Part shown: piece by piece, positions 48,618 to 50,545 of the stretch
Position numbering within the stretch: position 1 is the stretch's first letter
Layout: every line of letters begins with the position of its first letter
Source of the DNA: Agromyces sp. ISL-38
Lineage (GTDB): Bacteria > Actinomycetota > Actinomycetes > Actinomycetales > Microbacteriaceae
Direction of reading: 5' to 3'
NCBI RefSeq assembly: GCF_018613935.1
Contig: NZ_JAGGPF010000001.1
Location: 186,001 to 250,000 of the forward strand
Length of the DNA: 64,000 nucleotides
Translations under genes and position numbers: made by a program
Notes under the pieces: generated by a model
Told to the model about the DNA's origin: nothing
Databases searched by the model: none
What the model saw: the letters and a program-made list of their open reading frames with translations, nothing else

Positions 48618-48843
48618 GTGAAGCCTTTCAGGGAGCAATGCTCATGGGCTCTTCGTCGCAAACTGGAGAGCTGAGCGTCGGTGTGATCGCGAAGTAGAGT
48701 CATCCTGACACGCAAATCTACTCGTGACAACTCGCAGACATCCCCGGCTTTGCTGGGGGGCTGCCAGTGATTCTCAGCACGACGCAACACGCGTAGACTT
48801 TTGCGGAGCGAACCGAAACGGTCAGGTGTGCCCGTAGACGATG

Positions 48844-48858
48844 TACCCCTAGGGGGTA
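48844..48858. promoter_or_regulatory. CsoR-type (metal-sensing) operator
   Basis: TACCCCTAGGGGGTA has the TACCC-N5-GGGTA pattern of CsoR-family operators. It lies 12 bp before the ATG, next to a TATGTT that could be the -10 element, leaving room only for a leaderless transcript. Confidence 0.65.
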
Positions 48859-48870
48859 TATGTTAGCCTC

Positions 48871-49962
48871 ATGAACGCTGCCACCAGCGAATCCCTCATC
48901 CCGCAGAGCACCCTCCCCGAAGACGCCGTCTCCGCGGTGCTCGGCCTCGTCGTCGTCTCGGCGGTGTACGCCGATGGCCGGGCGCACATCATGGGCCTTC
49001 CCGACTCGTTCTTCACACCGTGGCACGCGTTCCTCTACGGCGGACTCGCGCTCCTCGTGCTCTGGCTTGCGGTCATGAGCCTCCGTGCCTCGCGGCGCTC
49101 GGGCTCGCCGCGAATCGTCGTGATTCCCGCCGGCTACGGGTTCGCGACGGTCGGTGCCGCGCTCTTCGCCATCGGCGGCGTCGCAGACATGATCTGGCAC
49201 GTGATCTTCGGTGTCGAGTTCGGGATCGATGCCCTGCTCAGCCCCTCGCACCTGTTGCTGTTCGTCGGCGGCTCGCTGCTGCTGAGCGGCCCGTTCCTCG
49301 CGTTCCGCCGAGGCGAGACCGCGCCACTTGCGGCTCGCATCCCAGCGCTCCTCGCCGTGGTGGGCATCACCGGTGTGGCCGCGTTCGCGCTCACCTTCCT
49401 CTCGGCCTTCGTCACCGACGCTCCCACCATTCCCCTGTCGCACGCGCCCGAGGGAACCGAGCAGCACGTCGTGTCCGAGGGCCTGGCCTCCGCCGGCCTC
49501 GGGAGCTTCATCCTCACCTCCCTGGTGCTCGTGATCCCCGCGATCTCCCTGCTTCGCACCCGAGCCTGGTTCCCGGGCGCACTCACCGTGCTCGTGACTG
49601 CGATTGCGGGAATGGCGTCGGTGCTCACCGGCTTCCAGACGCTGGGGTCGTCCGTCGTCGCCGCCTTCGTCTCCGCCGTTGTGCTCGATCTCGTCGTGGT
49701 GGGATTCCGGCAACGGGCGAGCGAGCGGGCCATGGAGCTGATCGTGGCATCCGCTCTGCCGCTGCTCGTCTGGACCGGTCAGCTCATCGCGATCGCAGCC
49801 CGTCTCGGGCTCGACTGGTCGCCGGCGATGAGCTCGGGCGTCGTACTCATGTCGGCGCTCGTCAGCTTCGCCGTCGTGCTGACGGTCGGTGGCCGGAGCT
49901 TCCGGACGACGAGCACCCAGACTGACGTCACCGAGTCGGCGCCCGCCCCGCCGGCGCGGTGA
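48871..49962 (+). CDS. Polytopic membrane protein under a CsoR-type operator
   Basis: 363 residues, about nine to ten hydrophobic helices. His-bearing segments at helix edges (GLPDSFFTPWHAFLYGG; IWHVIFGVEFGIDALLSPSH; PLSHAPEGTEQHVVSEG) could bind metal. There is no upstream Shine-Dalgarno sequence, fitting a leaderless start. No transporter family is recognised. The operator suggests induction by copper or another CsoR-family signal; that is inference. Confidence 0.7.
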   Translation: MNAATSESLIPQSTLPEDAVSAVLGLVVVSAVYADGRAHIMGLPDSFFTPWHAFLYGGLALLVLWLAVMSLRASRRSGSPRIVVIPAGYGFATVGAALFAIGGVADMIWHVIFGVEFGIDALLSPSHLLLFVGGSLLLSGPFLAFRRGETAPLAARIPALLAVVGITGVAAFALTFLSAFVTDAPTIPLSHAPEGTEQHVVSEGLASAGLGSFILTSLVLVIPAISLLRTRAWFPGALTVLVTAIAGMASVLTGFQTLGSSVVAAFVSAVVLDLVVVGFRQRASERAMELIVASALPLLVWTGQLIAIAARLGLDWSPAMSSGVVLMSALVSFAVVLTVGGRSFRTTSTQTDVTESAPAPPAR

Positions 49963-50110
49963 ACGCCAAGTAGGTACCGAACCGCAGGACCTTCGACTCG
50001 AGAGGAACCCGAGTTCGAGACGGAGCCGACGGGATTCTGATGTCGTCGAGGTAGGGCCCACCGCGGCATCCGCTCGACGACCGCGTCACGCAGACAGCGC
50101 TCTTCAGTCG

Positions 50111-50545
50111 TCACGCGATCACTGAGCTGAGGAGCAGGCTCGTCTCGCTGTTCTGCACGCCGTGAATCGACCGGATCGCGCCGAGCACTCGATCGAAATT
50201 GCCGAGGCTGTCGGTCTGGATCTCGGCCACGAGATCCCAGCTCCCGTTCGTGGTGTGCAGCGAGCGAATCTCGGGGATGCCCCGAAGATGCCGGATCACG
50301 TCGGTCGTGGTTCGCCCCTCGACCTCGATGAGCGCGATCGCCCGCACCGAGTCGAGGTCGTCCTGCTCACGGATCACCGCGGAGAACCCCACGATGACAC
50401 CCGAGGCGATGAGTCGATCGATCCGGCTGTTGACGGTTGCCCGGGTCACGTCGAGTTTGCGGGCGAGGCTGGCGACCGGCTCTCGGCCGTTGGCCCGCAA
50501 GGCCGCCAGGAGATTTCGGTCAAGGTCGTCGAGCGGGAGAGCCAT
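50111..50545 (-). CDS. Lrp/AsnC-family regulator
   Basis: 144 residues from ATG 50545. HTH (LDDLDRNLLAALRANGREPV, DVTRATVNSRIDRLIASGVI) and an RAM ligand domain (AIALIEVEGRTTTDVIRHL, TTNGSWDLVAEIQTDSL). Divergent from ctlX, so probably its regulator, responding to an amino acid such as arginine or ornithine. The intergenic region holds several GCAT/TGCA-rich motifs. Confidence 0.92.
   Translation of the reverse strand: MALPLDDLDRNLLAALRANGREPVASLARKLDVTRATVNSRIDRLIASGVIVGFSAVIREQDDLDSVRAIALIEVEGRTTTDVIRHLRGIPEIRSLHTTNGSWDLVAEIQTDSLGNFDRVLGAIRSIHGVQNSETSLLLSSVIA

Follow-up and report, generated by a model that had tools for sequence, protein, structure and literature searches.

In Agromyces sp. 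ISL-38, a CsoR-type operator lies at the promoter of a solitary gene for a membrane protein of no named family. In the window (the whole stretch of 64,000 nucleotides that was analyzed), the region upstream of this gene reads GTAGACGATGTACCCCTAGGGGGTATATGTTAGCCTCATG, and the locus comprises the following features.

48648 to 50117, no strand: stretch without a BLAST match between its flanks in the close relative G019
48835 to 48840, plus strand: −35-like TAGACG, weak, read from the sequence, with a spacer of 18 to the −10
48844 to 48858, no strand: CsoR-type operator TACCCCTAGGGGGTA (TAC-N9-GTA), a 15-bp palindrome, from sequence reading and motif searches
48859 to 48864, plus strand: −10-like TATGTT, read from the sequence, 6 nt 5′ of the ATG
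48871 to 49962, plus strand: gene for a 363-aa membrane protein with 10 predicted helices and no Pfam or NCBIfam family
48973 to 49026, plus strand: hairpin 1, D35-x3-H39-x9-T49-P50-x-H52, with the spacing of the PmoC CuC site
49186 to 49251, plus strand: hairpin 2, D106-x3-H110-x5-E116-x8-P125-x-H127, comparable to the PmoC CuD site

The first-pass annotation had placed a palindrome 12 bp 5′ of the ATG (48871) with TATGTT between the two, and reading of the sequence confirmed this arrangement, in which the palindrome directly precedes the −10-like TATGTT and the −35-like sequence is weak; a scan with the sigma-70 consensus found no plus-strand promoter at the site. Its statement that a ribosome-binding site is absent was likewise borne out, no purine-rich sequence of that kind being visible 5′ of the ATG. 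The in-frame open frame 5′ of this codon spans only 18 nt, and an earlier start codon is impossible because an in-frame TAG sits inside the palindrome. Transcription starting 6–7 nt past the −10 would hit the ATG, and the simplest reading is therefore that the mRNA is leaderless or near-leaderless. The Rhodococcus relatives differ from the window gene in this respect: there the palindrome lies inside the spacer of TTGACT-17-TAGGTT and is followed by a leader with a Shine-Dalgarno-like sequence, GGAG, before the ATG. By eye, the genes flanking the 363-aa gene in the window encode an oxidoreductase of the Gfo type and a regulator of the Lrp type; neither a kinase nor an oxidase gene adjoins it, and no copper gene was found nearby in the window region read.

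The exact site occurs once in the window, and a search allowing up to 3 mismatches returned three matches against 0.14 expected from shuffles, two of the three being the site itself, once per strand. Across the genome of 3,723,855 bases, TACCCCN3GGGGTA and TACCCN5GGGTA each occur at three places (reversed control patterns, 0 and 1, respectively), the other two operator sites lying 26 bp apart between copZ–copA and csoR. Since base composition alone gives an estimate of about 0.4 chance sites of the 12-base form per genome, the rarity of the motif is modest by itself, and the case for an operator is carried by its position over the promoter and its conservation before relatives. According to an excerpt of the Streptomyces lividans work (PMC3902906), CsoR there requires a TAC-N9-GTA dyad around G tracts, the form shared by the type-2 operators of csoR, copZA1, and copZA2, and the copZA1 operator contains TACCCCCTAGGGGTA, a 15-bp core that is the reverse complement of the window site. 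The window site thus has the type-2 dyad with its G/C tracts and is shared with the genome's own csoR/copZA operators, but, as against those of S. lividans in the same excerpt, what it precedes is one gene, encoding a membrane protein without a name, in place of copZA or csoR. Its earlier designation as a CsoR-type operator is strongly supported by the occurrence of the motif at the organism's own csoR/copZA, in the tested copZA1 core, and before several relatives.

The genome encodes two CsoR-family proteins. One (L001) is oriented divergently to genes that by eye resemble copZ and copA, two TACCCCN3GGGGTA sites separating them, and keeps Cys...His-x3-Cys, the pattern of copper-sensing CsoR proteins. 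The other (L002, C18 of the window's genome), behind a rhodanese-like gene by eye, is without the His of this pattern, as in CstR, and the pair looks like a persulfide-sensing CstR unit; ATACCCCGTGGGTAT is found about 60 bp upstream of the rhodanese-like gene. Copper had been named at the outset as one possible ligand beside nickel, sulfide, and formaldehyde, and it is copper that the genome supports, because the operator flanks only the CsoR with the copper-sensor pattern. These features make it highly probable that the gene is repressed by CsoR and that Cu(I) lifts the repression.

Relatives of the protein were scored by the best match to ATACCC-N5-GGGTAT within 360 bp before the conserved core. 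The scored set of 60 members consisted of 49 distinct ones (60 rows with 11 duplicates) and 11 more from a second set of 12 rows, whose twelfth, L062, had been counted before; L075, L078, and L079 were left out of the second set since no core was obtained. Scores of 11–12/12 were reached by five of the 60: the window gene, those of Arthrobacter sp. M2012083 (L005) and of a pair of near-identical-in-kind, closely related Rhodococcus plasmids (L042 and L043), and that of another actinobacterium, G181 (L030). The other 55 are without the operator, which counts against the copper-regulon reading. Random 360-bp stretches of the fetched loci reached a score of 11 in 21 of 3983 cases; when the five sites were removed, 15 of 3976 did so, all of them at copper-cluster operators, with 12 matches at the window genome's own two csoR/copZA operators and the remaining three before the L005 copZ, in the L043 csoR–copZ region, and at the copper cluster of L041 (our own reading). 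Two further candidates were not counted: ATACCCGTCGGGGGGGTAT in Ktedonospora (L028), where the gap from TAC to GTA is 11, not 9, and ACACCCTGCCCGGGTGT in Arthrobacter pZXY21 (L041), which is without TAC and GTA.

In L065 and L067, about 200 bp 5′ of the family gene, ATAGGGGTGGGGGGTAT and ATAGGGGTAGGGGGTAT, respectively, stand at a matching place; this shared element, perhaps a variant operator, lies beside either the end of a P-type ATPase or a multicopper oxidase.

The genes of the operator-bearing relatives sit in copper or redox clusters. Near the Arthrobacter L005 member are DUF305 and BNR-repeat proteins (Pfam), a P-type ATPase akin to annotated heavy-metal ATPases of the Rhodococcus plasmids, and a copZ-like gene preceded by ATACCCCCTAGGGGTAT; on Arthrobacter pZXY21 a related BNR protein lies 2 kb away and copB 11 kb away. 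The plasmids of Rhodococcus WAY2 and R. oxybenzonivorans carry a multicopper oxidase 2.4 kb from the gene, with a two-component system between, and CsoR–CopZ–CopA at about 9–12 kb, and in G181 thiol-redox and cytochrome-maturation-like genes are nearby (by eye). On the D. aetherius plasmid, CsoR–CopZ–CopA is found at a distance of about 3–6 kb, an IS element and a TetR gene intervening. A Pfam scan of 10 neighboring ORFs, picked by hand out of 25 listed loci, found a multicopper oxidase beside L066 and L067 and a fragment of one beside L074, a cupredoxin beside L078 and, below the cut-off, beside L071, an HAD hydrolase beside L065 (by eye a P-type ATPase end), and SfLAP beside L076; three of the 10 had no match.

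A neighbor of L053 gave a weak YtkA match below the cut-off, and next to the family member there lies, at L053:7761-9616 and L054:8101-9788, a large protein that carries repeats of an H-V-H-type motif and that matched nothing in Pfam; these proteins may possibly include a copper-binding partner. On plasmid 2 of D. deserti (L045:7887-8918), the family member precedes, by about 1 kb, the gene of an ABC binding protein and a cluster for cobalamin synthesis, a context that counts against the copper reading and suggests that in this branch a metal other than copper may play a part. The Caldilineaceae members, amid NAD-synthesis and other housekeeping genes (by eye), also count against it, and many of the 25 listed loci have nothing telling among their neighbors. 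Copper defense is a matter of some branches of the family, not of the whole.

The family is thinly spread. Among the matches listed, none falls in the 36 other genomes of the genus; there are matches in at least two of 60 relatives, in at least eight of 396 genomes sampled from the order (one of them, L035, a false match to another protein), in at least seven of 394 from the class (one partial), and in at least 20 of 396 from the phylum, the organism's own genome being counted each time. Between the flanking genes, which are 93% and 91% identical in G019, that genome has 146 bp as against 1470 bp in the window, the similarity of the left flank extending by eye to about 48740. Because these flanks close up without the insert, gene and operator probably arrived together; the alternative of loss in relatives is less likely given the 36 same-genus genomes. 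A tree built from 46 rows by a short search, with SH-aLRT support only (L078 gave no row), joins the window gene to two Arthrobacter copies (99) and then to two Rhodococcus copies (99).

Co-occurrence with copper monooxygenases was seen in places. The three AmoC/PmoC-bearing genomes among the 396 of the phylum (L085–L087, in genomes G790, G804, and G817) each have two family members, on other contigs, and count once since all three belong to one taxonomic family. Rhodococcus sp. WAY2 carries the family on pRWAY03 (L042) and a copper monooxygenase CAB operon on pRWAY02 (L088).

The first-pass description of the product as an unknown membrane protein holds: 10 helices are predicted, no Pfam match exceeds the cut-off (the nearest candidate, DUF7521, PF24365, at E 0.0035, falls below it), none was found in NCBIfam, and a profile search of NCBIfam and PHROGs gave no match worth keeping. 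No transporter family matched by profile, and neither did CopD (PF05425); the CopD/YcnJ proteins are multi-helix membrane proteins that go with extracytoplasmic copper proteins, and the likeness extends to the helices but not to a PF05425 match. Alignment A2, searched against the sequences of solved structures, returned nothing at E up to 10. The AlphaFold model has 10 helices with a mean pLDDT of 77 (85.5 for residues 1–155 modeled alone). Neither the whole protein nor the N-terminal model found a fold match at E up to 0.001 (the latter with Foldseek), and on a second look the whole protein gave heme A synthase, bd oxidase, and PmoC as middling rows only. Invariant across 22 rows are D35, H39, H52, D106, H110, E116, and H127, together with T49, P50, W51, W109, S124, and P125, while the last six helices (5–10) are poorly conserved. 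In the predicted model the candidate ligands stand on one side, at the ends of helices 1–4, with Arg-rich ends opposite, and by the positive-inside rule they would lie on the outer face of the membrane.

The starting point for a comparison with PmoC was the motif D-x2-W-H...T-P-x-H, noticed in the family and in PmoC/AmoC alike. In Methylococcus capsulatus PmoC, as given in an excerpt of PMC12576850, CuC is D156, H160, and H173 and CuD is N227, H231, and H245. Nine PmoC/AmoC sequences were aligned, three from genomes and six of 10 plasmid records found. Like PmoC/AmoC (PF04896), the family has two consecutive hairpins with D/N-x3-H ... P-x-H and a Glu 10 residues past the second D/N; all 29 family rows have a D-to-H spacing of 4 and a spacing of 10 between the second D and the Glu. 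From the first D to the H52 equivalent there are 17–20 residues over the 29 rows, 17 in the window and in all nine PmoC/AmoC, and from the first to the second D 71 in 20 of 29 rows, the PmoC/AmoC values being 71, 73, and 74 (three each). Hairpin 1 thus contains the CuC ligand pattern D-x3-H-x12-H. In contrast, the CuD pattern N-x3-H-x13-H is absent, hairpin 2 having D106-x3-H110-x16-H127, with Asp for Asn and three residues more before the last His (21 from the second D in 29 of 29 rows versus 18 in PmoC/AmoC). The sites also differ in occupying helices 1–4 of 10, and by eye no monooxygenase subunits are among the neighbors in the window. None of 14 members matched PF04896 at E up to 1, the window's own genome has no AmoC, and no PmoC relative was confirmed in viral contigs; identity as a copper monooxygenase was rejected on the missing AmoC match and the 10 predicted helices.

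When all conserved columns of the family and of PmoC/AmoC were compared at every ungapped offset, offset 94 gave six identical positions (D35, H39, T49, H52, H110, and E116; next best, three), or seven at a looser threshold, which added P50, with CuC and CuD ligands among them. At this offset D106 faces the CuD Asn, and P125/H127 face P216/H218 after the 3-residue insertion. Permuting the letters among conserved PmoC positions reached the match at neither threshold in 5000 trials (5 and 6 positions at most), a figure that excludes the choice of family, PmoC having been picked after the motif and a middling structural row. COX3 (PF00510), as a control, had a best offset of four positions (Gly and Phe) at the strict threshold and six (all Gly, Phe, or Ala) at the looser one, with no ligand. 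The raw count at the looser threshold therefore does not separate COX3 from PmoC, whereas the two are told apart at the strict threshold, by the ligand residues, and by the profile score: the hhalign score against COX3 was 15.1, and the merged profile against PmoC/AmoC scored 34.5, above the best of 180 shuffles (28.2) and above the profile in reverse (23.2).

Other results weigh against a likeness to PmoC, namely, the low hhalign probabilities (3–26%) and the different register of the higher-scoring alignments. With A2 the double-site register was recovered (E 0.013, 3%), while the N-terminal alignment (E 0.0026, 12%) and the merged alignment (E 0.0007, 26%) put hairpin 2 on CuC. In a second structural look, the N-terminal model matched PmoC chains at Z 8.0–8.3 (7s4h_C, 135 residues at 3.7 Å and 16% identity, model 9–152 on 127–270; 7s4m_C, 139 residues at 4.5 Å and 14% identity) in a register within a few residues of that of the motif. 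COX3 chains tied with PmoC (up to Z 8.8) and designed bundles reached 11.2, so the four-helix arrangement scores equally for COX3, which does not share the ligand pattern. Collectively, a site layout similar to that of PmoC is well supported, and homology is possible. A stronger claim, that the family shares true, if distant, ancestry with PmoC while standing apart from the copper membrane monooxygenases, its members being free-standing membrane proteins with one CuC-type and one CuD-type site for copper defense or copper-dependent oxidation, is one that we put forward tentatively and with more doubt than belief.

The explanation that we favor, and hold with slightly more belief than doubt, is lateral acquisition of the gene, which would belong to the CsoR regulon as a unit of one gene and encode a PmoC-like copper-binding membrane protein in copper defense. 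Without copper, CsoR would occupy the promoter palindrome and block transcription; Cu(I) would release it, and the (near-)leaderless mRNA would be made. The product would be a 10-helix membrane protein with two Asp-His-His sets and Glu116 at the outer ends of its first four helices. That it binds copper at this outer double Asp-His-His site, in the manner of CuC and CuD, is reasonably likely, and it may then serve copper defense together with CopA export and, in relatives, with multicopper oxidases and cupredoxins, as a membrane copper acceptor or relay or a copper-dependent redox protein.

The annotation's proposal of a transporter or sensor under metal control stands as to the control, for which copper is supported, but neither function finds specific support, the conserved residues being those of a PmoC-like double metal site. 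A copper-induced exporter or importer of copper or another metal, with Asp and His as an outer gate, would fit the ten predicted helices, the copper regulation, and the Deinococcus member beside cobalamin genes. We consider such a permease unlikely: no transporter family matches, and strong conservation of polar residues is confined to the ends of helices 1–4, for which reason an acceptor, relay, or redox protein is favored. Multicopper oxidases or a two-component system adjoining some relatives could point to a membrane copper sensor or to a protein that has no chemistry of its own and serves copper oxidases as a structural partner, but the window gene stands alone and lies downstream of a sensor, namely, CsoR, instead of next to one, and this reading seems quite improbable. 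Finally, the estimated 0.4 chance sites per genome and the lack of copper genes nearby in the window would suit a palindrome that matched by chance before a gene unrelated to copper; given its placement over the promoter, the same class of operator before the nearest relatives (except the Arthrobacter plasmid copy L041), and the copper clusters around them, we regard this as very improbable indeed.

A search of the open-licence literature on CsoR targets, PmoC homologues, and Arthrobacter copper genes returned no title or abstract on such a gene, and the gene type may perhaps be new to the literature. CuC and CuD are the copper sites of PmoC, and CuD is, according to an excerpt of PMC11194816, now taken as the methane-oxidizing site. 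If the favored explanation is true, a copper-switched protein of a single gene with a near-identical ligand layout would provide a simple system for studying CuC/CuD-type sites and a clue to how PmoC arose, and the CsoR copper regulon would gain a type of member new to it. Were the family in fact a distant relative of PmoC, it would show a use of the PmoC copper core apart from methane and ammonia oxidation.
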